A DNA stretch of 64,000 nucleotides. It comes from Pseudomonas sp. B21_DOA (lineage in GTDB: Bacteria; Pseudomonadota; Gammaproteobacteria; Pseudomonadales; Pseudomonadaceae). Made by a program: the position numbers and the translations under genes. The DNA is taken from the NCBI GenBank assembly GCA_030544685.1, contig CP086683.1, positions 3,348,001 to 3,412,000 on the forward strand, given 5' to 3'. Numbering within the stretch: the stretch's first letter is position 1; each line of letters opens with the position of its first letter. The notes beneath the pieces are model-generated. The model was not told where the DNA came from and did no database searches. It worked only from the letters and a program-made list of their open reading frames with translations. Shown here one piece after another: positions 7,230 to 60,865 of this stretch.

Positions 7230-10200
7230 GTGTCGACGCAGATGGCCAGCAACAAACAGATTTTGTGGGACGACGGCGAGCGGGTGTTGTCCCGCGAGCG
7301 CGGTTCGGGCGAGGGCAGCGTGTTGGCGGTGCGTCCGGCGCTCGGTCAGCCGTTGCCGGCGACCCTTGCGCGGCTCGCGCATGAGTACAGCCTCAGGGCC
7401 GATCTCGATTCTGCCTGGGCTTTGCAGCCTACGGCCTTGGCGCGTACGGGCACTCGGGTTCGTCTGCTGTTCGACGATCCGGGCGGCGAGCCGTTGTCGC
7501 GATTACTGGTCGCACCCCTGGCTATCGAAACCTGTCTGGGCTTGGCTGCCAATATTGCCAAGGCGCTGGGCCATCTGCATCAGCGCGGCCTGGTGCACAA
7601 AGACCTGAAACCGCAGCACATCTTCGTTCATTGCCATGATGGAGCGGCACGGTTGACCGGCTTCGGCCTGGCCTCGCGCGTGCCTCGCGAGCGGCAAGCG
7701 CCCACGCCGCCGGAAACCATCGCCGGCACGCTGGCCTACATGGCGCCGGAGCAAACCGGGCGGATGAATCGTTCGATCGATTCGCGCAGCGACCTGTATG
7801 CCTTCGGCGTGACGCTGTACCAGATGCTCACCGGCTCGCTGCCGTTCAGTGCGAATGATCCGATGGAATGGGTGCATTGCCACATCGCGCGGCTGCCGAT
7901 GCCAGCCTGCGAACGGGTGGCGACGGTGCCGCCAATGCTCTCGCGGGTGGTGATGAAACTGCTGGCGAAAACTGCCGAGGAACGCTATCAGACCGCGGCC
8001 GGCGTCGAGCATGACTTGCGCCGTTGCCTCGACGAGTGGCGACGGGCGCGACAGATCGAGACGTTTACGCTGAACGAGCAGGGCGCCCTCGAGCGTTTGC
8101 TGATTCCGGAAAAACTCTACGGCCGCGAACACGACGTGCAAACATTGATCGATGCCTTCGCCAATGTAGTGCAAACAGGTGCGCCGGCGCTGGTGCTGGT
8201 CTCGGGTTATTCCGGCATCGGCAAATCGTCGGTGGTCAGCGAACTGCACAAAGTGCTGGTGCCGACCCGTGGCTTGTTCGCCGCCGGCAAGTTCGACCAG
8301 TACCAGCGCGACGTACCCTATTCGACATTGGTCCAGGCCTTTCAGGGCCTGGTGCGGACGCTGTTGGGCAAGCGCGCCGACGTGCTGGCGGGATGGCGCG
8401 AAGCACTGTTGCGGGCGCTGGACGCGAACGCGCGGCTGATCACCGATCTGATTCCCGAGCTCAAATTGATCATCGGCGATCAGCCCGCCGTGCCCGAGCT
8501 GGAACCGCAGCAGGCGCAGCAGCGATTTCTAAAGGTTTTGCAGCGCTTCATCGGCGTGTTCGCCCGGGCCGAGCATCCGCTGACGCTGTTCCTTGACGAC
8601 CTGCAGTGGCTCGACGCGGCCACCCTTGATCTGCTCGAAGACTTGCTGAGCCGTGCCGAAATTGCTCATCTGCTGCTGGTTGGCGCGTATCGCGACAACG
8701 AGGTGGATGGGGATCATCCACTCAGCCGCACACTCAAGACCCTACGTCACGCCGGCGTACACATTGACGAAATTCGTCTGGCGCCACTGGCTGGCGCGCA
8801 CATCGAACAACTGATCAGCGAGTCGCTGCGCTGCCCACCGGCGAGTATCGTCGCGCTGGCGCGGCTGGTGCTGGACAAGACTGCCGGCAATCCGTTTTTC
8901 GTCATCCAGTTTCTGCACGCCCTGGCCGAGGAGAAGCTGCTGACATACGAGCCTGCGCGCCAGCGCTGGCGCTGGGATGTGCAGCTGATCAACGGCAAGG
9001 GCTACACCGACAACGTCGTCGACTTGATGGTCGGCAAACTGGCGCGGCTGCCCCAGGAAACCTGCCAGGCACTGCAGCAACTGGCTTGCCTGGGCAACGT
9101 TGCACGGCTCGACACGCTGGCCACCGTCCTCGATGTGCCGGTCCCTCGCGTTCACCCCGCGTTGTGGCCAGCGGTGCGGCTGGAGCTGGTCGAGCGTCAG
9201 GACGGTGCCTACCGGTTTGTGCATGACCGCATCCATGAAGCGGCGTATTCGCTGATCGCTGAAACCGAACGGGCGCAAATGCACCTGCGCATCGGCCGCT
9301 TGCTGGCGCTGCAAACCCAGGTCGAGCGGCGTGAAGAGGCGATCTTCGAGATTGTCGGCCAGCTCAATCGCGGTGCGCATCTGATCAGCCTGCGTGCCGA
9401 GCGCGAGCAACTGGCCGAATTCAATCTGCTTGCCGGCCAGCGCGCCAAGGCTTCGACCGCTTACACCTCGGCACTGACTTACTTGGGCGCCGGCGCAGAG
9501 CTGCTGGGCGAGCAGGGTTATGACAGTCGGCATGAGCTGGGTTTTGCTTTGGCGCTGAACCGCGCCGAGTGCGAATTTCTCACCGGCCAACTGGCGCTCG
9601 CCGACACGCGTCTGGCGACATTGGCCGAGCACGCCGTGACCACCGTCGAGCGCGCGGCGGTGGCCTGCCTGCAAATGGATGTCTACTTGCTGCTTGATCG
9701 CAGCGACCGGGCGGTGGCGGTGTGTCTGGCCTATCTGCGTCAGGTCGGCATCGATTGGTCAGCGCATCCGGGCGATGCTCAGGTGCGTGACGAATATCAG
9801 CAGGTCTGGACCAGCCTGCGCGGGCGCAGTATCGAGCGGATGATCGACTTGCCGCTGATGGAGGACCCAGCCGCGCGGGCCACCCTCGATACACTGGGCA
9901 AACTCTTCGCGCCGGCGGTGCAGTCGGATCTGAACCTCGCCAGCCTGACCATTTGCAAAGCGGTCAGCCTGAGCCTGCAATACGGCAACTGCGATGCGTC
10001 CTGTTTGCTCTATGCCAACTTCGGGCGCATATCGGGGCGGCGATTTGGCGACTATGCCGCCGGCTATCGATTTGGCCGTCTGGGCTGCGATCTGGTTGAG
10101 CGACGTGGGCTGACGCGTTACGAGGCGAGCACCTGGTTGTGCTTTTCGATTTTCGTGGTGCGCTGGATGCGACCTGTGCGCGAGTGCCGCGAACTGCTGC

Positions 10201-12701
10201 GCCGTGCGCTCAACGCGGCCCATCGCAGCGGCGATCTGCCGTATGCGGCGTTTGCCGGCAACAGCCTGATTTCCGATCTGTTGTTCATCGGCGAGCCGCT
10301 GGCCGAGGTGCAGGCGCAAGCTGAAGCAGGCCTGGCTTACGCCGAGAAGGTCGGTTTCGGTCTGGTGGCCGATTTCATGCGCTGCCAGTTGGCGCTGATC
10401 AAGATGCTGCGCGGGCAGACGCCGACGTTTGGCGGCTTCAACCATGACGGTTTCGATGAAACAGCTGTCGAGGCGCATCTCGCCGCGTCGGCGGATCTGG
10501 CGCTGGCGCGCGGCAAATACTGGGTGCGCAAGTTGCAGGCGCGCTACCTGGCGGGGATTACGCGGCGGCCGCTGAGTGCGCGGCGCAGGCGCAGGGATTG
10601 TTGTGGGTGATTTCGGCGTTTTTCGAAGAGGCCGAATATCATTTTTATGCGGCGCTGACTTTGGCCGCTCACGGCGAAACCGACGCCGATGCGCTACAGC
10701 GTCTGGGTCAACACCATGCGCAATTGCAAGTGTGGGCGGGTTTGTGCGCGGAAACCTTCGCCAGTCAGGTGGCGCTGGTCGGCGCAGAAATGGCGCGCGT
10801 CACCGGGCAGTTGCTCGAAGCCGAATTGCAGTACGAGCAAGCCATTCAATTGGCTCAGGACAATGGTTTGCTCCATATCGAAGCGCTGGCCAACGAACTG
10901 GCCGCACGGTTCTACAGCGCTCGCGGTCTGGCCAAGATATCCCGCGTTTACCTGCGCGACGCACGCTACGCCTATCTGCGCTGGGGCGCCGCAGGCAAAG
11001 TGCGGGAGCTGGAGCGACGTCACCGTTTTCTGCGTGCCGAAGAGGCGCAGCCGAATCCGACCACCACGCTCATTACGCCTGTTGAACACTTGGACATGGC
11101 GACGGTGCTCAAGGTCTCTCAAGCAGTGTCCGGGGAGATCGTCCTGGACCGTTTGATCGAAACGGTGATGCGCACCGCCATCGAACAGGCCGGGGCCGAG
11201 CATGGCCTGCTCATTTTGTTGGATGCCGACATTCCCTATGTTGCTGCGCAAACCCGCATCGGCGACGGTGCCACGCAGCTGTGCAACGCGCCGCTGCACG
11301 CGGTGGCGCTGGCTGAGTCGGTGCTCTACCAGACGCTGCGCACCGGCGAAAACCTGTGCCTGGACGACGCGGTTGCCGATCCGCTGTTCGCCGCCGATCC
11401 ATACGTTCAGCAACGAGGCGCGCGCTCGATCCTGTGCCTGGCATTGATGAATCAGGCGCGGGTGGTCGGGGCGCTGTATCTGGAAAACAACCTGTCGGCC
11501 GCGGTGTTCAGCCCGGCGCGTCTCGCCGTGTTGCGCCTGGTGGCGTCGCAGGCAGCGATCTCGCTGGACAACGCGCGCCTGTATCGCGACCTCGCCGAGC
11601 GAGAAGCGAAAATCCGTCGGCTGGTCGATGCCAACATTATCGGCATCATCGTCTGGAGCGTGGAAGGGGAAATCATCGAGGCCAACGACGCGTTCCTGCG
11701 CATGGTCGGTTACACCCGTGACGAGTTGCTTTCGGGCAGTGTCCATTGGCGTGACATGACGCCGCCGGCGATGCGCGCCAACAGCGACGTGGCACTGGCA
11801 ACGGCCATCCGCACCGGCCGCGCCCAGCCATTTGAAAAGGACTACATCCGCAAGGACGGCAGTCGCCTGCCGGTGATTGTCGGTCTCGCCGCCTTCGAAG
11901 CAAGTCAGCAGCAGGGCCTGGCCTTCGTCCTGGATATCAGCGAACGCAAGCTCGCCGAAGAGCAAGTGCGCGAAGGTGAGCGGCGGTATCGTCAGGTGCA
12001 AACGGAACTGGCCCACGCCAATCGCGTGGCAACCATGGGTCAGTTGGCCGCGTCGATCGCCCACGAAGTCAATCAACCGATCGCCGCCACGGTGACCCAT
12101 GCCAACGCCGCCCTGCGCTGGCTGGGTGCGCAACCGCCGAACGTTGCCGAGGTGGAGCAGGGCCTGCGGCACATCATTCTCGACGGCAACCGCGCCGCCG
12201 ACGTACTCGGGCGCATCCGCGCGCTGATCCACAAAACCCCGCCGCAGCGTCAGCCTGTCAGCCTCAATCTGCTGATCGAAGAAATGGTCGGTTTCAGCCG
12301 GGGTGAAGCGCTCAAACACGGCGCTGAGGTCAGCGTTGAGCTGGCGGCAGATTTGCCTTTCGTAGTGGCGGACCGGGTCGAACTGCAACAGGTGTTGCTC
12401 AACCTGATCATCAACAGCCTCGAAGCCATGACGATCATGGCAGCGGGGCAGCGACGTCTGCTGATTCGCAGTGAGGCGCTGGGCGAAAACGTGCAAATCA
12501 GCGTGAGCGATGCGGGCCGGGCTTTGCCTGCGAGCAGCCAGAGCAGGTGTTCACGGCGTTCTACACGACCAAATCCACCGGGCTGGGCATGGGCCTGTCG
12601 ATTTGCCGCACGATCATTGAAGGACATGGCGGCAAATTGTGGGCCGAGCGCAATGAGCCGAGGGGGCGCGGGTAGTGTTTGGCTTGCCGTGTTGTGAATG
12701 A
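7230..12701 (+). pseudogene. Giant kinase-like/AAA/GAF/PAS sensor histidine kinase, frameshifted
   Basis: With frames restored this is one protein of about 1,820 aa. In order it has: a Ser/Thr-kinase-like domain (residues ~25-270); an AAA_16 ATPase with Walker A GYSGIGKSS and Walker B LFLDDLQW; a long helical middle; a GAF domain; a PAS domain; and a histidine kinase with H-box SIAHEVNQPIAA and an ATPase G-box. The reading is broken three times by a missing base: in GGGG at 10553-10556, at 12516-12520, and in the G run at 12661-12665. The kinase-like domain reads HKDLKPQH and TGFGLA, so the Asn and the DFG Asp that bind magnesium are both replaced, suggesting a pseudokinase. The start is a GTG at 7230 or an ATG at 7242. 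It probably signals to the FixJ-type regulator just upstream. Confidence 0.88.
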
Positions 12702-14668: not shown

Positions 14669-14700
14669 ATGCCGGTGGTGCCGCCGGTTTGATCGATCGC

Positions 14701-15105
14701 TCAGCCCGCGTCCACCACCACAGCGGGTTCGAGCGGTGTCGCCTGATAGACCAGCAGTTGCCACTGCTCATCGGTTCGCTGCCAGGCGGTAAGCGTGCGA
14801 TTGTGCAGACGTTTGCGCACCCCACCGGAGGTTACGGTGGTGCTCATTTCACCCAAGGCAATCGCCAGCTCTCCGACCCGCGTCACTTTGTCGATCTGCA
14901 GATCAAGGGTGTGATAAACGAATTCACGAGAGCGGCATTTCTCCAGATAGCTTTTGAGGTTGTCGATGACGCCGCTGGCGTGAATGTAGGTGAGATCGGG
15001 GTGGAACAGGTAACTGAAAATATCCAGGTGCCCACCGAGCATGGCGGCGCAACGCTGTGCCTCGCAGGTTCGGATCAGCAGATCGGTTTGATCGTTAAGC
15101 GTCAT
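14701..15105 (-). CDS. NTF2-like (SnoaL/DUF4440-type) protein
   Basis: A protein of 134 aa with the cone-shaped NTF2-like pattern: an N-terminal helix pair, FHPDLTYIHASGVIDNLKSYL, then strands ending in RTLTAWQRTDEQWQLLVYQ. Relatives are isomerases, dehydratases or binding proteins; the substrate cannot be read from sequence. The start overlaps the end of the RidA-like gene by 11 nt, so the two are translationally coupled and probably share a pathway. The GST gene upstream is on the same strand. Confidence 0.8.
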   Translation of the reverse strand: MTLNDQTDLLIRTCEAQRCAAMLGGHLDIFSYLFHPDLTYIHASGVIDNLKSYLEKCRSREFVYHTLDLQIDKVTRVGELAIALGEMSTTVTSGGVRKRLHNRTLTAWQRTDEQWQLLVYQATPLEPAVVVDAG

Positions 15106-15466
15106 CTGCCGCTCCCCGCACTGCTGTAACGATGATTTCGATCAGCAACTTCCCGCCAAGATCAACGCCGTAACAAGCGCGCTGAGGCCAGTGCTGCGGG
15201 TTGTCGCCAATCCACTGCGCCCAGATTTCATCGACAATGGGTTTGCTGGCCATGTCGGCAAGAAGCACCTGCGCCGAGAGCATGCGCGAGGCGTTGGAGC
15301 CGAGTCCTTCGAGGCTGGCGCTCAGGGTAGCGAGGGCCCGGTGGGTCTGGCCGCTGATGTCCAGCGAGGTATCCGCGCTGGTCGCTACGGTGTAAACCAG
15401 GTCGGCGTAGGCGCAGGAACGGCTGCGTCCTGCGTGGCCGCTCGGGACGCGTTCAATGGTCTGCAT
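15095..15466 (-). CDS. RidA-family protein
   Basis: A protein of 123 aa of the YjgF/YER057c/UK114 (Rid) family, which hydrolyses reactive enamine/imine intermediates or has diverged to related reactions. Typical segments are DISGQTHRALATLSASLEGLG and the C-terminal RACYGVDLGGKLLIEIIVTA. The canonical Arg that binds the substrate carboxylate appears to be present as R in QRACYGV. It overlaps the NTF2-like gene and follows the GST gene by 62 nt, forming a small leftward operon. Confidence 0.82.
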   Translation of the reverse strand: MQTIERVPSGHAGRSRSCAYADLVYTVATSADTSLDISGQTHRALATLSASLEGLGSNASRMLSAQVLLADMASKPIVDEIWAQWIGDNPQHWPQRACYGVDLGGKLLIEIIVTAVRGAADDA

Positions 15467-15528
15467 GAGGCTTCATCCTTGTTGAAGTCAGGCAGAAGCC
15501 GGCATCGACCAGCTTCTGTCATCCATGA

Positions 15529-16140
15529 TTACACTGGCTGTGTTGCCTCTTCCGCGGCGATGGCGGCCTGCACACTTGGACGCGCTTCGATGCGCGCCAC
15601 GAACGCAGCCAGTTCCGGCCAGTCGCCGATGTCGATATTGAAGAAAGGAAGCCATTTCAAAACCGTAAACAGGTAGGCATCAGCGAGCCCGAAAGTGCTC
15701 AACAGATAATCCTTGTTGACCAGTTCCTTGTTCAGGTAATCCAGGCGCTTGAACAGTTTCTGGCGAAAGATTTCCTTTACCGGCTCCGGAATGTCTGCAT
15801 TGAACAACGGAGCACTGCCACCGTGGATCTCCGAGGTGATGAAATTGAGCAGTTCCTGCAGGCGAGTGCGTTCCCAGTTACCGTTGGCCGGTGCCAGAGC
15901 GTTGCCCGGTACCTGATCGGCCAGGAATTGAATGATGGCCGGCCCTTCAGTCAGCACCAGGCCGTTGTCCAGCACCAGCGCGGCCACATAGCCCTTGGGG
16001 TTGATGGCGCGAAAATCACGGCCGTCCGCCGTGGCTTTGGTCTTGTTGTTGACCCGGATCAGTTCAAAGGGCAGGCCCAGCTCACGCAACACAATGTGTG
16101 GCGACAGGGAGCAGGTCATTGGCGCAAAGTACAGTTTCAT
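15529..16140 (-). CDS. Glutathione S-transferase, beta-class-like
   Basis: A protein of 203 aa. The N-terminal thioredoxin-like domain begins MKLYFAPMTCSLSPHI with Cys10, the residue characteristic of bacterial beta-class GSTs. LTEGPAIIQFLADQ is the glutathione gamma-glutamyl binding segment, and the rest is the all-helical domain. It would conjugate glutathione to electrophiles or bind them in the cytoplasm. It is first in a leftward operon with RidA-like and NTF2-like genes and is preceded by a 154-bp gap facing a LysR gene. Confidence 0.88.
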   Translation of the reverse strand: MKLYFAPMTCSLSPHIVLRELGLPFELIRVNNKTKATADGRDFRAINPKGYVAALVLDNGLVLTEGPAIIQFLADQVPGNALAPANGNWERTRLQELLNFITSEIHGGSAPLFNADIPEPVKEIFRQKLFKRLDYLNKELVNKDYLLSTFGLADAYLFTVLKWLPFFNIDIGDWPELAAFVARIEARPSVQAAIAAEEATQPV

Positions 16141-16294
16141 GTGGATCTCCTTGAAGTAAGCAACACGTACCCGAACGCATTGCCCGGCTCACGTCGCAAT
16201 GGCTGTGAACCGTGTTCCAGACATATTGGTGGCGTGTCATGGATCGGTAAAATTACGATTTTATGCGCTCATCATTAGCTGCTCTTATGTCCAC

Positions 16295-17220
16295 TCAGGC
16301 GACTTTCGCTTCAGTACTGCGAACCGTCATCGGAATATCGTTGCCAATACTCGACTTGCGAATTTCATTGAGAAACGCTTGAGCGGAAGGAGTCCGTTCG
16401 CCGACCGCCGAGCAGACCAGCCCGAATTCACGGTAAATCGGTCGGGCCAATTCGAAGACCCGCATGCCGCGTCGATCCAGCGGCAATGTCGAGGCAGGAA
16501 CGATCGAGATGCCCATGCCTTCACTGATCAGCGCAAATGCAGTGGTCCAGTCGCGCACGGTGATCTTGATGTCTCTTAGCGTGAGTCCCTCACGCTCGAC
16601 CAGCGACTGGCCATTGAGGTGACAGCCACCCGTTGCCAGGATGAAAGGCTCTGTCACCAGATCTTCGAGCGCGACCGTGCTGGCCGAGGACTTGCGCGCC
16701 AGATCATGGTTCGCAGGGACTGCCGCTACCCACGAGTCGCGGCCCAATAACAGCGCACCGCGCGAAGGGCAGGGTTCATCACCACACCAAGGTCGATGCT
16801 GCTGTTGGCCAGCCACTGTTCGACTTCTTCATCGGTGCCTTCCAGCGCGACGATTTCGATGCCCGGGTGCAGCCGACTGAAACTTTGCAGCAGCGGTGGC
16901 AGCAGGTTGGCGAATACCGAGGGAAAGCTGGCGAGTTTGATTCGCCCCAAGTGACACCCACGTGATGCGTCCACCAGATTCTGAATCGATTCGAATTCAC
17001 TGAGCATGCGCCGCGCGCGGTCAATGATTTGCTGGCCAATGGCCGTTGCAGTGGTCTGGCGTCGATCACGCACAAACACTTTGACCCCGAGTGCTTCCTC
17101 CATCTGGGTCAAGGCCTGACTGGCGCCCGACTGGGTGATGCCATAGCGCTCGGCGGCGCGGGAAACATTCTCGGCGTCAGCCACGGCGACCAGCAGTCGC
17201 CAATGCATCAGGTTCATCAT
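16295..17220 (-). pseudogene. LysR-type regulator, frameshifted
   Basis: From ATG 17220 (AGAGGA 9 nt upstream) the HTH reads NVSRAAERYGITQSGASQAL and continues to GVVMNPALR. The effector domain then resumes in another frame as GALLLGRDSWVAAVPANHD and ends at 16295 after about 308 aa in total. A single missing base near 16759-16762 joins the frames. It is divergent from the MFS gene at 17338, its probable target. As the break is a single-base indel like many others here, the gene may be intact in the living strain. Confidence 0.8.
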
Positions 17221-17337
17221 CTCAGTAGTTCCTCTTATGTTCAGGTAATCGAGATTTAATTTTACGGAGCCTGCGCACCGCCTCAGGATCACGATGAATA
17301 CACAGTGAGGTGGTGGAAGGTGGGCAAAACTCTGTCA

Positions 17338-18691
17338 ATGGATCTGGTGGTCAGGCCTGCGTCGGCGACGCCCGTGTTACTGAGCGTGGCGTTGAGCTCG
17401 TTCATGGTCGCGCTGGACGTCACAGCGCTGAATGTCGCGCTACCCGAGATGGGTCGCGACCTGGCAGCGGGGATGGATCGTCTGCAATGGATTGCCGGTG
17501 CCTACACGCTGGTCTTTGCCAGCCTGCTCCTGTCTGCCGGTGCATTGAGCGATCGTTTGGGCGCGAGGCGAGTGTTTGTGTGGGCCTTGGTGATATTCAC
17601 GGGCGCATCGATAGCATGTGGATCGGCCAGCAATGTCTTGGCGCTGATTGCGGCGCGTGCCGTGCAAGGCGTCGGAGCGGCATTGATGCTGCCCAGCTCC
17701 ATGGCGCTGCTGGTCGAGGCCTACCCGAGCCCGGCGCACGGGCGAGGGCCGTTGCGCTGTGGGGTGGAATCTCGGCGCTGGCGCTGGTGAGCGGACCTTT
17801 GTTGGGGGGCTTGCTGGTCGAGCACATCAACTGGCGTGCGATTTTCTACCTCAATGTGCCGTTTTGTATGGTTGCGCTGCTCAGCTGCGCGCTACGCAGC
17901 AGGCCCGTTGCCGTCCGGCCACGTTCTATCGACTGGGCAGGGCAGGTGCTTTCGGCCCTGGCGCTGGTGTCGTTGATCTTCGCTTTGATTGAAGGCCCCG
18001 TATGGGGCTGGGGACATGCGTGGGTCATGGCTGCACTGCTCACCGCTTTGATGACCGCCGTGGCATTCGTCCATTCGCAGCGAACTCGGCGCGAACCGAT
18101 GCTGCCCTGAATCTGTTTGCCTCCAGAACCTTTTCTGCAGCGATCGGCGCCGGGTTTCTGCAAACGCTGGCTTACTACGGCAGTCTTTTCGTATTGCCGT
18201 TTGCCTTGCAGGGGCAAGGTCGCGCCCCTGTTGAAATCGGCGTGGCGATGATTCCGATGACGCTCGCAACCGGTGTGATGGCCAGCCTTTCCGGACGCCT
18301 GTCGAATGCATTGGGTGCCCGCTCAGTCGGTGCTGCTGGCATGTTGTGCGGCGCACTCGGCGCGGCATCGCTGGCACTGTTCGATATGAATGCTGTAAGC
18401 CTGGTGCTTGGCGGTTTGTTGATCGGCCTCGGCGGTGCGACCTTGCCGGTGATCGTCGGTGCCTGTCTGGCAAGTGTGCCGAGCGGCAAGGTCGGAATCG
18501 GCTCCGGCGTGCTCAATGCGGCCCGCCAGTGTGGCGGAGTGATGGGTATTGCCTTGCTCGGTGCGACGTTCCAGGGCTCGGGACACGCAACCGCTGCGTT
18601 GGCAATCATTGCGTTGTCATTTGCGGCGGCGGCCGTGCTGACCGTCATGCGGCTTTACACCGACGAAGTCGATGCTGTGGGTGAATGCTGA
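17338..18691 (+). pseudogene. MFS drug-type exporter (DHA2-like), frameshifted twice
   Basis: The restored protein has about 450 aa and at least 12 predicted membrane spans. The motif LSDRLGARRVF between helices 2 and 3 marks the major facilitator superfamily, and the N-terminal SSFMVALDVTALNVALP is typical of DHA2 exporters. The frame is lost near 17736-17740 (after EAYPSPA) and again at CCC 18105-18107 (after REPMLP), each by one missing base. Start choices are a GTG at 17305 or the ATG at 17338. It stands between a divergent LysR gene and the converging UbiX gene, so it may export the product of that operon. Confidence 0.8.
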
Positions 18692-18866
18692 CCGGCGTGC
18701 CGAAGCTTGCCGGTGAGTGTTTCGATGACACAGCGTTGCATTCGCCCGGCCGCACTCGGTTTGAGCGAGCAGGCAAACGCAACGGTATAGCGTGGTTCCT
18801 GATTGTGAAAGAGCGAGTCGGCAAGGCGTCTGGACACACTTGCCGATGATGCAGCCAACCGGGAAT
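18692..18866. other. Gap between convergent MFS and UbiX genes
   Basis: ACCGGC and GCCGGT (about 18691-18714) can pair to end the MFS transcript. On the minus strand a TTG-started frame at 18858-18655 reads sensible sequence (SRRLADSLFHNQEPRYTVAF) that could be the tail of a lost regulator, but I cannot name it. No other motif is seen. Confidence 0.3.
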
Positions 18867-19432
18867 TCAGCCCCAGCGCCGCACGGTTCCGGTATCCAGT
18901 CCCAACAGATCAAGCATGCGCCCAAGCGTATGGTCGACCATGTCCTGGATCGATTGGGGTCTGGCATAGAACGCCGGTACTGGCGGCATCACGATGCCGC
19001 CCATTTCACAAATCTGGGTCATGCTGCGCAGGTGCCCCAGATGTAACGGCGTTTCCTCACCATTAAAATCAGCGGTCGACGTTCCTTGAGTGTCACGTCG
19101 GCGGCACGGCTGAGCAGGGTGCCGGTGATGCCGCTGGAGATCTCCGAAAGGCTTTTGATGGAGCAAGGAGTCACGACCATGCCCAGTGTCTTGAACGAAC
19201 CGCTGGAAATCGAGGCGCCAATGTCCGCAGGGTCGTGTACGACACTGGCCAGCGCTTTGACGTCCGCCACTTTCATGTCCAGTTCGTGGGCCAATGTGAC
19301 CTGGGCCGAGCGGGTCATCACCAGATGCGTGGCAATGCCCAGTTCGCGCAACAGCACCAACGTACGCACGCCATAAATCACGCCGCTGGCCCCGCTGATG
19401 CCGACGACAATCCGCCGCTCAGGGCTGTTCAT
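18867..19432 (-). pseudogene. UbiX-like flavin prenyltransferase, frameshifted
   Basis: The family's N-terminal GISGASGVIYGVRTL is at residues 11-25, and SSGSFKTLGMVVTPCSIKSL follows. The frame breaks after LILMVR; the expected continuation ETPLHLGHLRSM (the UbiX motif) is in another frame that ends at 18867. One missing C in CC at 19055-19056 (plus strand) explains this. The restored length of 188 aa is normal. UbiX prenylates FMN with dimethylallyl phosphate to make the cofactor of UbiD decarboxylases. It overlaps the UbiD gene by 14 nt, a classic pair. Confidence 0.88.
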
Positions 19433-20927
19433 GAGAATCTACCGCCTCGTCGAATGTGCTGATCAACGGCGGTTGACCCGGCAGGCCCAACGCGGCCCAG
19501 CGTTCGCTGACGCGCGCGTACACCGATGGGCGCAATAACGTGCGCGTCGGGAAGTGGCGTATGTTGCGGTAATCCTTGCAGGCGTTGATCAAGGCCTTGG
19601 AACCGAAAAAACGTTTCTCTGGCGGGTTCTGCGCCGGGTCCAGCGGCGAGCCGCGCGTGTTGCGCAGAATATCGATGTCATCGCTGGGAGTTGCACGTGT
19701 GGCCATTGCCCAGAGCACTTGGTTCATGTCGGTGGGATCGACATCCTCGTCAACCGCGACGATCCACTTGCTGATATAGGCGCCACCGGGGACCTGGCTG
19801 GCGAGTGCCAGGGCCTGTGCAGCGTGACCGGCGTATTTCTGTTCCAGGCTGATCACGATCATGCCGAACGCACCGGCTGCGGCCGGAGGGCAGTACACCC
19901 CGTGGATGCCCTGGATGCCGAGTTTGTCGAGATCGCTCCAGATTTTCGCCGAGCGGATCGTCGAAAAAAATGCGCTTTGTTCGTTCGAGGGGAAATCAGC
20001 CATCAAGGCATTGGTCAGGATCGGTCGGGTGCGATAGTGCAGGGCAGTGACTTCGATCAGCGGGCAATCGATGTCCTTGTAGCCGTAGTAACCGGTGAAC
20101 TCGCCGAAAGGGCCTTCTTCGCGGGTCGAACCGGGACGAATCAGGCCTTCAATGACAATCTCGGCAGCCGCAGGAATCAACAAGTCGGAATGTCTGGCCC
20201 GTACCACTTCGATAGGCTTGCCTTTGATGCCCCCGGCGAAGTCGTATTCGCTGACGCCCGGTGGCAGGGATTGCGACCCCACGACCATCATCAGCGGGTC
20301 GACACCCCAGGCAGCAGCAACGGGCAGCGCCTCGCCCTTGGCCCATGCCTGATGAATGTGACGCAAAGCGTCCTTGCCTGGGGCCAGTGACAGGCCGACC
20401 TCGCGGGGGCCTTGGATCATCATTCGATAGGTGCCGACATTCAGGTAACCCGAGGCCTGATCGCGGGTGAACACCGCGTCCGCGGTACCGGCGTAAGCGC
20501 CGCCGTCTCGGGGCCAGTGCTTGGGAATCGGCAGCCGGGTGAGGTCGATGTCATGGCCGGTGAGGGTGTTCTGATAGATCGGTGCGGCTTCAGCGCTGAC
20601 CTCCAGCGGGGCGATGCTGTGCCTGAGCTTGTCTTTGGTGCGCCGGATCAATTCCATCGTTGGCGTATCCGGTGCTTCCTCCAGGGTGATCGCGGTGCGA
20701 GCCACGCTTGGGCCGAAAATATTCCACAGGTGGCGTAAGCCCAGCGGCGAGTCCGCCTGGTCGAAGAGCACCGCAGGCGAAGCAGCCTGGCGAGCCAACA
20801 AATAAGTGATGGCGCTCATTTCCTCAACCGGATCGACAGCGGGCGAGACAGTCTGCAATTCGCCGATCTTTTCGGCCCGTGCCAGCCAGTCGCGCAGGTC
20901 GGCAACCGGTTCAATCAATTCGTTCAT
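19419..20927 (-). CDS. UbiD-family prenylated-FMN decarboxylase
   Basis: A protein of about 502 aa with family features throughout: LRDWLARAEKIGEL at the start, IYQNTLTGHDIDLTRLPIPK, NVGTYRMMIQGPREVGLS, and EGPFGEFTGYYG in the core. UbiD enzymes reversibly decarboxylate aromatic or alpha,beta-unsaturated acids using prenylated FMN, made here by the adjacent UbiX. The start at 20927 is preferred over 20996 because the longer form adds an atypical Cys-rich leader. It follows DoxX by 65 nt in a six-gene leftward operon. The substrate is unknown; it need not be the ubiquinone precursor. Confidence 0.9.
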   Translation of the reverse strand: MNELIEPVADLRDWLARAEKIGELQTVSPAVDPVEEMSAITYLLARQAASPAVLFDQADSPLGLRHLWNIFGPSVARTAITLEEAPDTPTMELIRRTKDKLRHSIAPLEVSAEAAPIYQNTLTGHDIDLTRLPIPKHWPRDGGAYAGTADAVFTRDQASGYLNVGTYRMMIQGPREVGLSLAPGKDALRHIHQAWAKGEALPVAAAWGVDPLMMVVGSQSLPPGVSEYDFAGGIKGKPIEVVRARHSDLLIPAAAEIVIEGLIRPGSTREEGPFGEFTGYYGYKDIDCPLIEVTALHYRTRPILTNALMADFPSNEQSAFFSTIRSAKIWSDLDKLGIQGIHGVYCPPAAAGAFGMIVISLEQKYAGHAAQALALASQVPGGAYISKWIVAVDEDVDPTDMNQVLWAMATRATPSDDIDILRNTRGSPLDPAQNPPEKRFFGSKALINACKDYRNIRHFPTRTLLRPSVYARVSERWAALGLPGQPPLISTFDEAVDSHEQP

Positions 20928-20992
20928 GTTGGATATCCGCAAGCACTGAAATGGAAGCGACGGGCAGCATTGCTGCGCCCGTCGCCAGAGGA

Positions 20993-21415
20993 TCAACGTT
21001 TGTCGATCGAGTACTTTCCAGGCCCCAGAAGGCAGAGGAAGAGGAAACCGCCGGCAATGCTCACGTTCTTGAAGAAGTGCACGAATAGCGTGTGATGATC
21101 GGCCGGGTTGGTGCTGTTCCAGAAAGCATGGCCGATGATGCCGGTGCCAATGGTGTACACCACGAAGATCGCCGCGATCGGCCGGGTCCAGAAGCCGAAC
21201 AACAGTGCCAGACCACCGAAGAATTCGATGATGGTGGCGACGATGGCGGTGAACTCGGGTATCGGCGCGTTTACCGTTTTCAGATAGCTGACGAAGCTGC
21301 CGTGATCGGTGACGTAGGTGAAGCCGAAGTAACCGTAGAGGATCAAAATCATGATCCGGGCCACCAGGATCATTGCGTCGCGTTGGTCGTCGAACAATTG
21401 ATAGCGTAAGTACAT
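20993..21415 (-). CDS. DoxX-family membrane protein
   Basis: A protein of 140 aa with four predicted membrane segments (from about 15, 60, 85 and 115) and the DoxX pattern GLALLFGFWTRPIAAIFVVYT. DoxX proteins are small inner-membrane proteins linked to quinone or thiol redox partners; their exact chemistry is often unclear. It begins 9 nt after the end of the hydroxyacid dehydrogenase gene, so it belongs to the same transcript and may supply electrons or a membrane anchor. Confidence 0.85.
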   Translation of the reverse strand: MYLRYQLFDDQRDAMILVARIMILILYGYFGFTYVTDHGSFVSYLKTVNAPIPEFTAIVATIIEFFGGLALLFGFWTRPIAAIFVVYTIGTGIIGHAFWNSTNPADHHTLFVHFFKNVSIAGGFLFLCLLGPGKYSIDKR

Positions 21416-21424
21416 TGCATGGCC

Positions 21425-22456
21425 TCAGATTGGGTAAGGAAACGTGCTGGCTGACTGCGTGTCGGCGAGCTGAAACGCACGCGCGAATACTTGCGGGTTC
21501 ACCGCGTTGTCGTGGTTGGGTTCAGCGTCGAAAACCGCGAGAACATTGCCCGCAGCCAGTTTCGCCATGCGGCTGACGGCCTCGCGGGATACTCCCGCCA
21601 GGTGCGGCGAGCTGATAACGTTGTCCAGACTTGGCAAACCGCTGCTAGGAGCGGGCGGTTCCGGCAGAAATACATCCAGCGCAGCCCCCCAGTCGGTTCT
21701 GCCTCAACGCCTCATACAGCGCCTGTTCATCGACGATGCCGCCACGCGCGGTGTTGATCACATACGCGTGGGGTTTCATCAAAGCCAAGCGTTCGGCGGA
21801 CAACAAGCCAACCGTTTCGGCGGTTTTGGGACAGTGCAGACTGACGTAGTCGGCGCTCGCCAATGCACCTTCCAGGACGGCAACCGGCTCCACGCCGTGG
21901 GGCAAGTGCTGCGCGGCGAGATAAGGGTCATACACCCTGACCCGCATCCCCAGTGCCAACAGCAGAGTGGCGACCCGAGCGCCTATTCGGCCGCAACCGA
22001 TGAGCAATGCTTCACGACCTTCCAGCTCGCTGGGCAGATACTCGTAGCGCTGATGCCAATCGCCATTGCGCACCAGGCGACTCAGCGCCTCGGTGCGTTT
22101 GGCCAAGGCCAACATGAATCCCAGCGTATGCTCGGCGACTGCGCGGTGATTGGCGTTGGCGCAAACCATTACCGGAATCGCCGCTTCGGTCATTACCGGG
22201 ATATCCACCGCATCGAAGCCGACGCCGATCCGTGACACTACCTGCAACCCTGTCGCGCGTTGCAACTCGGCTGGGCCGAATCGGGTCAGTCCGAGGACGA
22301 CACCGTGTACGGCATCGAAACTTTCCAGCAGTGCCTGAAACTGACTTTGCTCAATCGTATTGGCGAACTCCACCACCTCGATATCGTCGCGCTCGCGCAG
22401 CAGGCGCTTCCTTCATCGCCGAGGATATGAGCAATCAAAACGCGCTTTTTGCTCAT
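21425..22456 (-). pseudogene. D-isomer-specific 2-hydroxyacid dehydrogenase, frameshifted twice
   Basis: The gene starts at ATG 22456 (MSKKRVLIAHILGDEG), overlapping the dioxygenase stop as ATGA. The frame shifts near 22408, where one A is missing, and runs through the NAD-binding motif IGCGRIGARVATLLLALG and the segment NTARGGIVDEQAL. It breaks again at six C at 21685-21690 (plus strand), where one base is missing, and ends with SSPHLAGVS, which contains the catalytic His, and an ordinary C-terminus. The restored length of about 344 aa is normal. It would interconvert a 2-ketoacid and a D-2-hydroxyacid with NAD(P)H. Confidence 0.82.
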
Positions 22457-23355
22457 GCGACATGCTCCTTCAGTTCATCTTTGGCAAAGAACTCGCCGTC
22501 ATTGATGCCAATGCGAAACATCACCCGTTCGGCATCGCGGGGCAATTCGGTGGCGCAGTGCCATACGGAGCGGTTGTCCCAGATCAGCAGATCGTGGGGC
22601 TCCCATTGGTAATTGAAGATCCGCTCCGGCGTCAGCGCGAATGCGAAAAGCTGGTCAAGCAATGCCTGACTCTGCTCTGGCGAATAGCCGCTGATGTGCG
22701 CTGTGTAACCCGGATTGACGTACAGGCTTTCGCGTCCGGTGCGCGGATGTATGGCAACTGTGGGGTGTGTGCTGGCGGGAAATGTCTGCTCCAGGCGTGT
22801 GAAAATCTCTTGGATCGACTCGCCTACGTCGTCTTCCTTGACTTTGTAGGTCCAGCGCACGTCGTGTACGGCTTGTCGATTCCTGACCCGCTCATACAAG
22901 TCTCTGGGCAAATCGTCGTACACCGACTGCATATCCACGAACAGGGTATCGCCACCCGCTTCGGGCAATTGCTGTGCGTGCAGCATGGTCAGTGGCAACG
23001 GTTCTGCCAGGTAGCTCGAATCGCTGTGCCACATGTTGCCGAGCTTGCGTGCACCGGTTGCGCCACCGCCATTGCGATTGTTGATTACCAGAATGTTCGG
23101 GAACGCCGGGTCGTGGTAATTCTTGAGCCTGAACTGCTCCAGTTCGCCGAAACATCCGGCGAATTGCTGATAGCCTTCGCGAGTCAATCGCTGGTTCTTC
23201 AGCGCCACCACTTTGCGCTCGTAGACCAGTTCCTGAATGGCACGAATCTCATTCAGGGACGCCGTGTTGATATCGAAATCTGTCACCGCGGTGACAAAGG
23301 TGTCGGTCAAATCCATTCGCTTCACGTTAAGTGTCTCCTGCACGACGTCAGTCAA
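22453..23355 (-). CDS. TauD/TfdA-family Fe(II)/2-oxoglutarate dioxygenase
   Basis: A protein of 300 aa. The metal-binding HxD is in GNMWHSDSSY at about residues 109-111 and the distal His in DNRSVWHCATELPRDAERVM, followed by the Arg (MFRIG) that holds 2-oxoglutarate. These enzymes hydroxylate or desaturate small acids, often losing sulfite, phosphate or CO2 from unstable products. It overlaps both neighbours by 4 nt (ATGA), so it is translated in step with the oxoamine synthase before it and the dehydrogenase after it. Confidence 0.9.
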   Translation of the reverse strand: MTDVVQETLNVKRMDLTDTFVTAVTDFDINTASLNEIRAIQELVYERKVVALKNQRLTREGYQQFAGCFGELEQFRLKNYHDPAFPNILVINNRNGGGATGARKLGNMWHSDSSYLAEPLPLTMLHAQQLPEAGGDTLFVDMQSVYDDLPRDLYERVRNRQAVHDVRWTYKVKEDDVGESIQEIFTRLEQTFPASTHPTVAIHPRTGRESLYVNPGYTAHISGYSPEQSQALLDQLFAFALTPERIFNYQWEPHDLLIWDNRSVWHCATELPRDAERVMFRIGINDGEFFAKDELKEHVA

Positions 23356-24643
23356 ACAGCCAGCGCAGGCTGGTGTTGGTCGGCACCCGGGTTCACTTGT
23401 GGCGACACGCTGCTTTTGAGCATCAGGCTCAGGTCGAGGATGTCGGCCGGGTTGTGTGCCGAGGTGACTGACATGCGCAGAGCAGCCTGGCCGCGCGGCA
23501 CTGTCGGGAAGAACACGACGGAGGTGTAGTGACCCTGCTGCAACAGGTACTCGCCTTTGGCAATGGCCTGCTCTTCGTTGCCAATACGAACGATGCGAAT
23601 CGGCAGTTCGCTGCCGCTGGTTTCGGTCGGGATCAGGTTGTCGAACAGCGCCATGTTGTTGCGCAGTGACCGTTGCAGTTTGTGCAGTTCAGGCGTGGCA
23701 TGAATTTCCGCCGAAGCCAGCGCAGCACCGACGGCCGCCATATTGGGAGCGCAGGAGAAGCCGTAGGTCGGCGCATAACGGCGGATCGCGTTCTCGACAT
23801 GTTGGGTGCCCAGCATCAACAGCCCGCCGGCGGCACCGTAGCCCTTGCCCAGCGATGCGGCCACGATGGTGTTTTCATCCAGACCGTCGAGTTGCGAACG
23901 AACGAAGCCCTCGCCGCGCTGCCCGACCACCGAAATCCCGTGGGCGTCGTCCAGATAGACGAACAGCCCGTATTTATCCTGCAGCGCGCGTAATTCGCGA
24001 ACTGGCGCGGCGCCACCCATCGAATAGGCACCGTCGCCCACATACGCAACCTTACGACCGCTTTTGCACAAGCGTTCCAGGTGATCGAGGTCGTTATGCT
24101 CGATGACGATTACGTCAGTCTCTTCGCGCAAGACCGGAATGTGATACTGCAAGGTCACGTGAGCAAAGCGGTCGAAGGCGATCAGCGGCTTCTCACCGCC
24201 GGTGAACAGGCCGGCAGCCAAGAGGGGCAGGGCACCCATATTGGCAGCGGCGACTGTCGGGAAAACTACTATGCCGTTGACGTCAAACAGTTTGGCCAGG
24301 GTTTTTCCAGGCGTACCAGCGGTTCGGCGGACAGGCGCGTACGGGCGACCGAAAAGTGCGTGGAGGGCGTTTCTTCCATTGAGGCCCTGGCGGCAGCGAG
24401 CACTTTGGGGTGCGCATCGAGGTTAAGGTAGCCGCAGCGCGTATAGTCAATCACTTCCTTGCCGCTGGTGGCGATTTCGATACGGCGGTTGTCCAGCACG
24501 CGGCAGGACACCCCCATCAGACCTTTTTCATACGCAGCATCGAAATGCGGACGGCTGATTTCAGCCATTCTCGACGCATTGCGCGCTTTTGACCGGGATG
24601 TTTTTTCAAGCGCGACGCTGCTTGTTTCAACGGCGTTATTCAT
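23352..24643 (-). pseudogene. Alpha-oxoamine synthase (AONS/CqsA-like), frameshifted
   Basis: The protein starts at ATG 24643 (GAGG 6 nt upstream) and reads YTRCGYLNLDAHPKVLAAA and HFSVARTRLSAEPLVRLEK. One A missing from the run at 24302-24306 (plus TTTTT) shifts the frame. The rest includes VVFPTVAAANMGALPLL, the PLP-binding region DDAHGISVVG, and the Schiff-base Lys in ASLGKGYGAAGG. The restored length is about 430 aa. The family couples an amino acid and an acyl-CoA with loss of CO2 to give an alpha-aminoketone, as in KBL, BioF, HemA or the quorum-signal synthase CqsA. It is first in the six-gene operon and divergent from the LysR gene at 24786. Confidence 0.85.
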
Positions 24644-24785
24644 GGCGACCTCATCCTTTGAGTGGGTGTTCCCGAAGCCGTAATGGCTCAGGAACGGCGC
24701 TAGAATCCACGACCGCTGAAACATTTTGCAAAGGACTTCTCCGCTGTTACCTTATGACAAAATCTCATGAGCATTACGAAGTCTT

Positions 24786-25697
24786 ATGGTTACCCGGATT
24801 CCCTCTCTCAATGGATTGAAAGCGTTCGAAGCCGCTGCGCGCCATATGAGCTTTACCAAGGCGGCCGAAGAGCTGAATGTCACGCAGACGGCCATCAGCC
24901 ATCAGATTCGTCGCCTCGAAGATGAACTCGGAATTCGTTTGTTTCTGAGACTCAAGGACGGCCTGGCGCTGACGACTGAAGGCCACGCCTACCTGCCCGG
25001 TATCCGCTCGGCATTTCATGAGTTGCGTTACTCGACTGAAATGCTGCTGGAGTCCACGAATAACAGTGCGTTGACCATCAGTACTCTGGTGTCGCTTGCC
25101 TCCAAATGGCTTTTGCCGCGCCTGGCATCTTTTCAGGATGCATTTCCCAATATCGACGTGCGCGTAACCGCCTCGACGGACCTGGTCGATTTCCGCAAGG
25201 GCGGTATCGATGCGGCGATTCGCTATGGCTTCGGTGACTGGAAAGGGCTGCGTGCAGACTGGCTGATGTCGGACGAAATCTTTCCGGTCTGCAGCCCGAA
25301 GCTACTGCTCGGCCCGCAGGCCTTGAGGACTCCCGTCGATCTTGCCCATCACAAGTTATTGCAAGTGAGCGGCATGACAAGCAATGACTGGAACATGTGG
25401 CTAAGCGCGGCGGGCCAGCCGAAAAAACTGGCCGAGGGTACGCGTTTGACGTTCGATCTGGCGATGATGGCGGTGCAGGCCGCCATTGATGGTCTCGGCG
25501 TCTGCATTGGACGTTCGACCTACGTCGATGACGACTTGAAGGCCGGAAAGCTGGTCGCGCCATTCAACCTTCGATTGAAATCCGATCTTGGTTTCTATCT
25601 GGTGACACCGCTGGAAATTGCCAACTCCAACAAGGTCGTGGCCTTCCGCACATGGCTGATTGATCTGGTGCAAGGCGCAGGCACCGTCAAACCCTGA
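24786..25697 (+). CDS. LysR-type regulator, GcvA/AmpR-like
   Basis: A protein of 303 aa. The HTH (MSFTKAAEELNVTQTAISHQIRRLEDELG) is of the GcvA subgroup. The effector domain has the DAAIRYGFGDWKGLRADWLM segment typical of that group. It is divergent from the oxoamine synthase operon with 142 bp between starts, so it is the likely activator of that operon, probably responding to its substrate or product. Confidence 0.9.
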   Translation: MVTRIPSLNGLKAFEAAARHMSFTKAAEELNVTQTAISHQIRRLEDELGIRLFLRLKDGLALTTEGHAYLPGIRSAFHELRYSTEMLLESTNNSALTISTLVSLASKWLLPRLASFQDAFPNIDVRVTASTDLVDFRKGGIDAAIRYGFGDWKGLRADWLMSDEIFPVCSPKLLLGPQALRTPVDLAHHKLLQVSGMTSNDWNMWLSAAGQPKKLAEGTRLTFDLAMMAVQAAIDGLGVCIGRSTYVDDDLKAGKLVAPFNLRLKSDLGFYLVTPLEIANSNKVVAFRTWLIDLVQGAGTVKP

Positions 25698-26566: not shown

Positions 26567-26704
26567 CCCGCAACGCGACGAGCGCCAAACCTCGTCGCAT
26601 CCCCCTGTTGTGCCATGACTGGCACACCGCCACGGCTTGCACCACCCGGCCCCGACTGTCACCCTTCGGGCCGTTCTTCAAGGATCAGAACAAGGAATCA
26701 AGGA

Positions 26705-28246
26705 TTGAGTGGCTACGTTCCAAACCCGCCGAAAAACTACCGCTACGAACAAGCCAAACCCGTCGACATACACGCCCAGCACTGGGCCGAGTATGAGAAA
26801 CACGGGAAAGAACCCGCGCGCGAGCCTGAGAAAATAGGCATTGCGTTGAGGATTGGGGTGTTCTTTGATGGCACGGGCAACAATGCGAACAACTCTGCTG
26901 CGGGGTTGTTGTGCGGTGCCCAGCATCCGATTGCGCCGGAGGATATACCGGCTAGCTGTATGCCTTACATGAGTGATCCGGATAGTAGTTATGGTGCCGG
27001 GCCTACGAATATCAAGAAATTGTTTTCTCTGTATAAAAAGACCCAGAAAGCCGAAGGCGATGGCTTTCTTAAGTACGTCTCAAGCCCAATATATGTCGAA
27101 GGTATAGGCACTGAAAGCAATCAGATGGATAGCGCTGTAGGTGCTGGAACGGGGCGAGGTGAGACTGGTGTTACGAGTCGCGTACAAGCGTCCTTCACGC
27201 AGATAAAACAAGCTATCGAAGAGGCACTGCAAGAGAACCCCGACAGTGAAATTGCGTCCCTGACGTTCGATACATTTGGCTTCAGTCGTGGGGCTGCTGC
27301 TGCACGGCACTTCGCAAATGAAGTGGTGCGGGGTAAGCAAGGAGCTTTAGGAGATATCCTAAACCGGAACGCCGCAGATTTCAGTCGCACCTTTGATAAT
27401 AAATACGGAAACGGCATCAAAATGGGTTTCATCGGGCTCTTTGACACGGTGCCCTCGATTGCCGGCTTCACCAATCTCGGCCGGGTGAAAAGTCCCATAG
27501 CTCCCGGTGTGAGGCTGTACCTGGACCGTCAATACTTCATGGATGTCGTACATCTCGTAGCGCGTGATGAATGTCGCGCTAATTTTGCCCTCAGCCGAGT
27601 GAAACCCGCGCACCCTGAGTACACTCTTCCTGGGGTTCATTCGGATATTGGCGGCAGCTATCTCGATGAAGTCGAAGAATGCGTGCTCGTCAGCCCTATG
27701 CAAACTCTCGCTGTGCCTCGGTACGTAGACGTTTCAACGACGTCGATTTATCACGACGCCGCGCGTGTAAAAAGCGAGTGGATTGCTAAAGGATGGCCTG
27801 CGCATCTGCTGGATATTGTCACCCCGGCCTCCTTCGAAATTCCGCAGGAGCATCAAGACAGGCTTTCACCGGGGCAGAAGCGCGTATATGCCGCTCTACA
27901 ATTGAAACGTCCGGTGAGTGGAAAACTTTCGAGAGTTTATTTAAGAGTCATGTATCAGCTGGCAAAAGAAAAGGGTGTTCAATTCATTGATATACCCGAA
28001 GATGACGAATACTCCGTGCCGGCAGAACTCCAATCTCTTTGTGACCGATTTCTCACAGGAAACTACAGAACAACTGCAGAAGAAGAGGCTTTGCTCAAGC
28101 TGAAGTACATTCATCCCTCTGCAAACTGGAATCATCCCCTCGGAAGAAGAGATGGGAGCGGCATTGATGCTGTTTACATCAACGCCCCGACGGAAGACGC
28201 GATCCGTGTACAACACCCTCACGTAGCTGATTGGAAACTCTGGTAA
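26705..28246 (+). CDS. DUF2235 (Tle1-type) phospholipase, probable T6SS effector
   Basis: A protein of 513 aa from the TTG at 26705, chosen because AAGGA lies 8 nt upstream and MSGYVPNPPK is a plausible beginning; an ATG at 26615 would add 30 low-complexity residues. GVFFDGTGNN opens the DUF2235 domain, and the nucleophile motif GFSRGAAAAR (Ser in GxSxG) follows in the middle. HSDIGGSY probably supplies the catalytic Asp/His region. Proteins of this kind are phospholipases sent into rival cells by type VI secretion. The stop overlaps the start of a DUF2931 lipoprotein gene (TAATG), the usual place for an immunity protein. No VgrG or PAAR gene is in view. The 3' half is AT-rich compared with neighbours, suggesting transfer. 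Confidence 0.85.
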   Translation: MSGYVPNPPKNYRYEQAKPVDIHAQHWAEYEKHGKEPAREPEKIGIALRIGVFFDGTGNNANNSAAGLLCGAQHPIAPEDIPASCMPYMSDPDSSYGAGPTNIKKLFSLYKKTQKAEGDGFLKYVSSPIYVEGIGTESNQMDSAVGAGTGRGETGVTSRVQASFTQIKQAIEEALQENPDSEIASLTFDTFGFSRGAAAARHFANEVVRGKQGALGDILNRNAADFSRTFDNKYGNGIKMGFIGLFDTVPSIAGFTNLGRVKSPIAPGVRLYLDRQYFMDVVHLVARDECRANFALSRVKPAHPEYTLPGVHSDIGGSYLDEVEECVLVSPMQTLAVPRYVDVSTTSIYHDAARVKSEWIAKGWPAHLLDIVTPASFEIPQEHQDRLSPGQKRVYAALQLKRPVSGKLSRVYLRVMYQLAKEKGVQFIDIPEDDEYSVPAELQSLCDRFLTGNYRTTAEEEALLKLKYIHPSANWNHPLGRRDGSGIDAVYINAPTEDAIRVQHPHVADWKLW

Positions 28247-44226: not shown

Positions 44227-44251
44227 GGGTTGGAAAGGACAGTTGGGTTTG

Positions 44252-60823: not shown

Positions 60824-60865
60824 TTAGCGAGCCGACGCCTTCAGGTTTAAAGTCAATCTCAATTG

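Follow-up and report, generated by a model that had tools for sequence, protein, structure and literature searches.

A conserved twelve-gene block around an oxoamine synthase and UbiD/UbiX operon in Pseudomonas: a candidate biosynthetic island for an aminoketone-derived metabolite

Which pathway is encoded by an operon that combines an alpha-oxoamine synthase, a TauD-like oxygenase, a D-2-hydroxyacid dehydrogenase, a DoxX-family membrane protein and the decarboxylase pair UbiD and UbiX? Such an operon occupies the minus strand of a 64,000-nucleotide stretch of Pseudomonas sp. B21_DOA (contig CP086683.1, positions 3,348,001 to 3,412,000; hereafter the window), running in the order just given from 24643 down to 18867. 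Its genes overlap by 4 nucleotides (nt) at synthase/TauD, 4 nt at TauD/dehydrogenase and 14 nt at UbiD/UbiX, with gaps of 9 nt between dehydrogenase and DoxX and 65 nt between DoxX and UbiD. An initial annotation, made from the sequence alone, had described these six genes; their order and spacing were confirmed from the open reading frames and Pfam, and each family assignment is backed by Pfam domain matches (Table 1). What it had overlooked is that three of the six are frameshifted in this copy.

The operon is the core of a larger, twelve-gene block of 11 kb (window 14,701–25,697), arranged as LysR1; synthase-TauD-dehydrogenase-DoxX-UbiD-UbiX; a major facilitator superfamily (MFS) transporter gene; and LysR2, glutathione S-transferase (GST), Rid and DUF4440. 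We consider it an even chance that this block is a biosynthetic island, spread by horizontal transfer, whose product is a small metabolite derived from an aminoketone and exported from the cell. The divergent LysR gene and the MFS gene with its own LysR gene, previously noted as flanking the operon, are present and kept elsewhere. The six genes were rightly seen as part of a conserved multi-gene unit, but its size had been underestimated, the GST gene being as constant as the core enzymes.

The extent of conservation was established by scanning 84,980 species, each represented by a single genome, with two peptide patterns, from which the best 80 of 483 encoding stretches were taken. The ten best of these, with synthases 78–96% identical in the best segment, were combined with two further Pseudomonas loci and the window into a set of 13: the window, nine other Pseudomonas, one Chimaeribacter (L038) and two Paraburkholderia (L039, L040). 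L111, L136 and L137 were left out as duplicates of L034, L033 and L037; L135 and L037 show 95.8% identity over 15 kb, which leaves these two of the 13 loci non-independent. LysR1, synthase, TauD, dehydrogenase, UbiD and GST were found in every locus, the MFS gene and LysR2 in 12 each, an intact DoxX in 11 and UbiX in 10. Rid and DUF4440 genes follow GST in the ten Pseudomonas copies; no Rid gene was found in the three non-Pseudomonas loci at E 1e-5, and DUF4440 was likewise not found outside Pseudomonas. A lack of co-occurrence in other genomes had been named as grounds for rejecting the proposal; instead, the gene set recurred in 13 of 13 loci.

At the DNA level, similarity to seven other Pseudomonas loci forms one block from ~14,700 to ~25,680 and stops at both sides, the outer DUF4440 end being reached at 14698–14723 in all seven. 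For L035 and L037 the match falls into two or three pieces, reflecting deletions there. Beyond the block, matches were limited to scattered short repeats and a single 1.8-kb stretch that lies elsewhere in L033. Between comparison loci, the ratio of nonsynonymous to synonymous substitution rates (dN/dS) was 0.018–0.157 for ten block genes (five pairs per gene, three for UbiD; the window copy, Rid and DUF4440 stood outside the test), indicating purifying selection. Because it is kept in all loci and selected in this way, the six-gene set is more than a chance association.

Over ten loci, gene distances are correlated at 0.93–0.99, and within seven Pseudomonas loci the distances of TauD, dehydrogenase, UbiD and GST vary together (r 0.53–0.84; p 0.09 for TauD/GST and 0.013 or less for the other pairs). 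TauD relatives travel with the synthase: at least 13 of 18 synthase clusters (identity ≥65%, coverage ≥90%, longest contig ≥10 kb; the partial-coverage clusters P0101 and P0108 left out) have a longest contig equal in length to that of a TauD cluster, as matched from two lists, a lower bound given that one contig is shown per cluster. A TauD match at E 1e-60 was present in 7 of 398 Pseudomonas genomes, six of them at ≥84% identity (this genome included) and one (G036) at 36%. A search of 148 genomes with synthase P0116 at E 1e-120, which had no positive control, returned no match.

The association was not seen with more distant synthases. In the other 70 of the best 80 stretches, which carry synthases of 46–53% identity and reach at most 10 kb to either side (shorter where a contig ends), TauD, DoxX, UbiD, UbiX, MFS and GST were all unmatched at E 1e-8; a distant dehydrogenase match occurred in two loci (L066, L109) and a distant LysR match in three (L043, L044, L080). 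We therefore rejected these mostly rhizobial synthases as carriers of the same pathway, no TauD or UbiD having been seen in any of those 70. As a separate observation, three related synthases (L112, L113 and L114; Sinorhizobium pSymA, Mesorhizobium and Shinella plasmids) lie near an aminotransferase and an acetolactate-synthase-like gene, with an SDR-type gene (short-chain dehydrogenase/reductase) also present in two of the three.

Few copies of the block share a genomic site. Comparison of the flanks of ten comparison loci and the window revealed three shared stretches longer than 250 bp, in the pairs L034/L037 and L039/L040; in addition, L134 shares flank DNA with L034, and L135 is in the same site as L037. 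Apart from these shared sites, the block is conserved up to abrupt ends and set in differing flanks, as expected for a horizontally mobile island. The Paraburkholderia humisilvae copy has a ParA gene, a Rep3 plasmid initiator and a phage integrase within 10 kb. Among the few flank genes of the window copy put to Pfam, no integrase or transposase was seen, and PLSDB held no plasmid with a synthase of ≥60% identity among 125 matching records. In protein databases, at least one block protein is named from Serratia, Nissabacter, Acinetobacter, Caballeronia, Agrobacterium, Xanthomonas and the Pseudomonas syringae group. Where hosts of the block or of its proteins are named, most, though not all, are soil or plant bacteria, and the block apparently moves among bacteria associated with plants and bacteria of soil.

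The synthase is an alpha-oxoamine synthase, with the fold of that family, and by both sequence and fold it is closest to Alb29 of the albogrisin pathway of Streptomyces albogriseolus (33% identity; PDB 8I7U, 8XHA, 8XHD, 8XHK). The motifs SLGKG, FDRFAHV, DDAHGIS and RGxAALR, which we take to hold the pyridoxal phosphate (PLP) lysine, the stacking His, the Asp-Ala-His and the carboxylate Arg, are present in all 12 comparison loci and the window. Amino-acid specificity could not be deduced from position V79 of ThAOS, for which the alignments with Alb29 and the published statement were irreconcilable.

The initial annotation had named CqsA as a relative, raising the prospect of a signal. CqsA-type synthases make alpha-hydroxyketone or aminoketone signals for CqsS/LqsS systems, and the block could by analogy produce an aminoketone or alpha-hydroxyketone that acts like an autoinducer and is recognised by LysR1. 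The block synthase does belong to the same superfamily as the CqsA/LqsA autoinducer synthases, but the relationship is not close: CqsA matched in the PDB at ~1e-8, against ~1e-58 for Alb29, and the NCBIfam equivalog PRK07179 gave 59.7 bits against a cut-off of 428, over a C-terminal piece only. CqsA was not among the 50 entries listed, which is compatible with a relationship. Unlike CqsA/LqsA systems, the block has no sensor kinase gene among its twelve, and its distribution is rare and patchy, with the high-identity TauD matches described above in six of 398 Pseudomonas genomes. The remote PDB match, the missed family cut-off and the fold closest to Alb29 led us to discard a CqsA-like signal synthase as first choice, and we regard a signal system as very unlikely.

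In favour of such a system stands, besides the common superfamily, a divergent regulator with a conserved candidate operator. The sequence ATGA-N7-TCAT, which follows the T-N11-A rule for LysR sites, lies in the LysR1/synthase divergent promoter. Its palindrome halves are invariant in 11 of 11 aligned loci from three genera. It is perfect, and the sole match in the 64-kb window at two or fewer mismatches, for which chance predicts a mean of 0.97 matches per window. Conservation was also seen between LysR2 and MFS, in the intergenic region of all 10 loci aligned. From these sequences, LysR1 would be predicted to bind ATGA-N7-TCAT and switch the operon, and LysR2 to control the MFS/GST side.

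Whether the operon makes or degrades a compound had been left undecided, and the genes beside related synthases lean towards making. Among 15 related Pseudomonas synthases (L003–L017, 41–46% identity), an MFS gene lies directly downstream in 12 (L005–L015 and L017), although 11 of these represent one orthologous pair; in L003, an L-amino-acid-ligase-like gene takes this position. A unit of Alb29-like synthase and MFS transporter is possibly a minimal exported-aminoketone system. The twelve genes include no ring-cleavage, CoA-ligase or thiolase gene by Pfam (CoA, coenzyme A), so that no route to central metabolism is visible.

These observations bear on the main rival, somewhat unlikely in our judgement, in which the block is a catabolic or detoxifying island acting on a plant-derived acid. 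UbiD would decarboxylate the acid, the dehydrogenase and TauD would oxidise it, GST would conjugate and the MFS protein expel, with the synthase running thiolytically, in the manner of 2-amino-3-ketobutyrate CoA ligase when threonine is broken down. Pathways of aromatic-acid catabolism often include UbiD/UbiX, GST, LysR and 2-hydroxyacid dehydrogenase genes, and both the host range and the likeness of UbiD to many environmental proteins fit as well. Against this scheme, besides the missing catabolic genes and the MFS pairing, oxoamine synthases are described as irreversible (PMC11906848).

In UbiD, the motifs NxGTYR and EGPFGE occur in 12 of 12 comparison loci and AE[IL]VIEG in nine, with close variants in the other three; the window protein has NVGTYR and AEIVIEG, with the N-terminal, central and C-terminal domains and the Arg and Glu motifs of the UbiD family. 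A published account places an E(D)-R-E network in this family (PMC8988006), and in our reading of the sequence the Arg and Glu motifs probably surround these residues. The three UbiD domains are common to the UbiD/UbiX pairs of vanillate, indole-3-carboxylate and pyrrole-2-carboxylate decarboxylases, and a UbiX partner is present as in those pairs, in the 10 loci counted above. Of the NCBIfam models listed, the general UbiD subfamily model passes its cut-off, and every model for a specific decarboxylase falls short of its own. The block UbiD is 65–69% identical to many environmental proteins, for which a search of 398 Pseudomonadota genomes at E 1e-140 matched only this genome.

Several points weigh against a biosynthetic island. 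As those environmental relatives have no assigned role, UbiD could have been taken over to act on a catabolic acid. The raw count overstates the synthase/MFS pairing, which is largely one orthologous unit, and L016 has no MFS gene though its synthase is 71% identical to the orthologous-pair group. UbiX is missing from three of the 13 loci (L037, L135, L038), and DoxX is absent from L038, which also lacks MFS and LysR2, and shortened in L035; neither UbiX nor DoxX is strictly needed in the block. Synthase and LysR1 distances show no significant tracking of the other genes in the seven Pseudomonas loci. Finally, the window copy may be inactive.

In favour of the biosynthetic reading, catalytic motifs of synthase, TauD, dehydrogenase and UbiD are kept in the 12 comparison loci, conservative variants allowed. 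TauD belongs to the TauD/TfdA family and has the iron motifs WHSD and WDNRSxxH in 12 of 12; the pattern of its 2-oxoglutarate Arg stretch is present in eight, with a close variant seen by eye in L134, L038 and L039 (L040 was not inspected). Its best solved relatives are ScoE, of isonitrile pathways, and 6l86, whose iron and 2-oxoglutarate motifs it keeps. However, it scores 188.9 against a cut-off of 400 with the NCBIfam ScoE model (NF049937), and a Tyr-Tyr pair of ScoE, presumably important, aligns with Phe-Arg. The block holds no other known isonitrile-pathway gene by Pfam. An isonitrile pathway by analogy with ScoE was rejected on the missed cut-off. Among solved structures, the intact L034 orthologue of the dehydrogenase is closest to McyI.

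For the biosynthetic island, the gene content suggests the following scheme, in which every step, the order of steps, the product and its export are predictions from sequence. The synthase would form an alpha-aminoketone from an amino acid and an acyl-CoA, releasing CO2. The oxidation level may then be adjusted by the Fe/2-oxoglutarate oxygenase together with the D-2-hydroxyacid dehydrogenase, and UbiD, with prenylated flavin mononucleotide (prenyl-FMN) from UbiX, would remove a carboxylate beside a double bond or a (hetero)aromatic ring. The MFS protein would export the product. GST, which we take to be of the beta class, and Rid, presumably an imine or enamine hydrolase, could mop up reactive by-products or protect the producer.

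A bolder variant, to which we give a small chance, is that the exported product is a vinyl aminoketone of a new class. It would resemble vinylglycine and act as an antimetabolite on PLP enzymes, while GST, Rid and MFS would protect the producer. Here glutamate (or aspartate) and an acyl-CoA would be joined by the Alb29-type synthase, the remaining side-chain carboxylate would become that of an alpha,beta-unsaturated acid through the oxygenase and dehydrogenase, and UbiD would convert this into a terminal alkene. We know of no natural product whose short pathway combines an oxoamine synthase with a prenyl-FMN decarboxylase, and no paper on this pairing was found in the full-text literature searched.

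In the same literature, which mostly excludes subscription papers, no listed title or opening of an abstract describes a cluster with this gene set, though a description may exist elsewhere; this is in line with the earlier remark that no named pathway with the set was known. The novelty is in the gene set and not in any single enzyme family. If the biosynthetic reading is true, Pseudomonas, Paraburkholderia and Enterobacterales carry a compact pathway that pairs PLP/CoA condensation with prenyl-FMN decarboxylation and leads to a small molecule whose structure cannot be read from any cluster known to us. It would give metabolomics a defined, testable target and place an enzyme class that currently interests biocatalysis in a natural setting.

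We compared the reading frames of the window copy with the intact orthologues of L034 (Pseudomonas botevensis COW3). Seven frameshifts were found in five of the twelve block genes: one in the synthase, two in the dehydrogenase, one in UbiX, two in the MFS gene and one in LysR2. Taken as real, they would make this copy a decayed pseudo-operon with a dead pathway in this strain, a view that concerns the present copy only and is compatible with any of the other readings. The shifts are nominally more frequent than in a control of 20 kb around leuS in the same genome, where 2 of 16 genes lie in two frames relative to G046. However, shifts thus occur outside the block too, and a further case may lie in the window at 7230–12697, where large kinase/AAA and GAF/PAS/HATPase frames look like a single gene broken near 10.6 kb, as would fit frameshift errors beyond the block. 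Genome completeness is 95.3%, against 98–100% for 58 other genomes of the genus, and block orthologues elsewhere have intact frames; in two other Pseudomonas copies, none of nine genes each lies in two frames. Given the shifts in the control region, the low completeness and the intact copies elsewhere, most shifts are likely assembly errors, and decay appears unlikely.

Table 1. Genes and candidate operator of the twelve-gene block (window coordinates).
Feature	Coordinates	Strand	Remarks
LysR1, GcvA-type LysR regulator	24786..25697	+	PF00126/PF03466; NCBIfam GcvA subfamily model above cut-off; divergent from operon
Candidate operator ATGA-N7-TCAT (T-N11-A)	24754..24768	-	LysR1/synthase divergent promoter
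Alb29-type alpha-oxoamine synthase (PRK07505 family)	23352..24643	-	PF00155; two frames here
TauD/ScoE-like Fe(II)/2-oxoglutarate oxygenase	22453..23355	-	PF02668; intact, TTG start
D-2-hydroxyacid dehydrogenase	21425..22456	-	PF02826/PF00389; three pieces (two shifts) here
DoxX-family membrane protein	20993..21415	-	PF07681; whole
UbiD prenyl-FMN decarboxylase	19419..20927	-	PF01977, PF20695, PF20696; intact
UbiX flavin prenyltransferase	18867..19432	-	PF02441 and PRK06029 on both pieces; two frames here
MFS transporter, putative exporter	17305..18691	+	PF07690 on L034 orthologue; frameshifted here; convergent with UbiX
LysR2	16295..17220	-	Pfam on L034 orthologue; divergent from MFS; frameshifted here
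Glutathione S-transferase	15529..16140	-	Pfam on L034 orthologue; closest solved GSTs 2dsa/2gdr
Rid/RidA-family protein	15095..15466	-	PF01042
DUF4440 (NTF2-like) protein	14701..15105	-	PF14534; outer end of block

Some features near the block and elsewhere in the window deserve mention. In the Paraburkholderia copies, an HbpS-like gene right after GST (L039, 19241–19645, by Pfam; L040, 19147–19596, by resemblance) occupies the place of the Rid gene in the Pseudomonas copies. Adjoining the block in the window, a gene at 26615–28246 has a match to a Tle1-like phospholipase domain of the type VI secretion system (T6SS). Three tandem arrays lie at 42748–44233, 49350–50425 and 60865–62233, with units of ~134, 133 and 178 bp in ~8–11 copies. 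Their units contain palindromes of the GGGAGCGAGCTTGCTCGCGAA type, which we take to resemble the REP elements (repetitive extragenic palindromes) of Pseudomonas, and short elements similar to the units match two other Pseudomonas loci.

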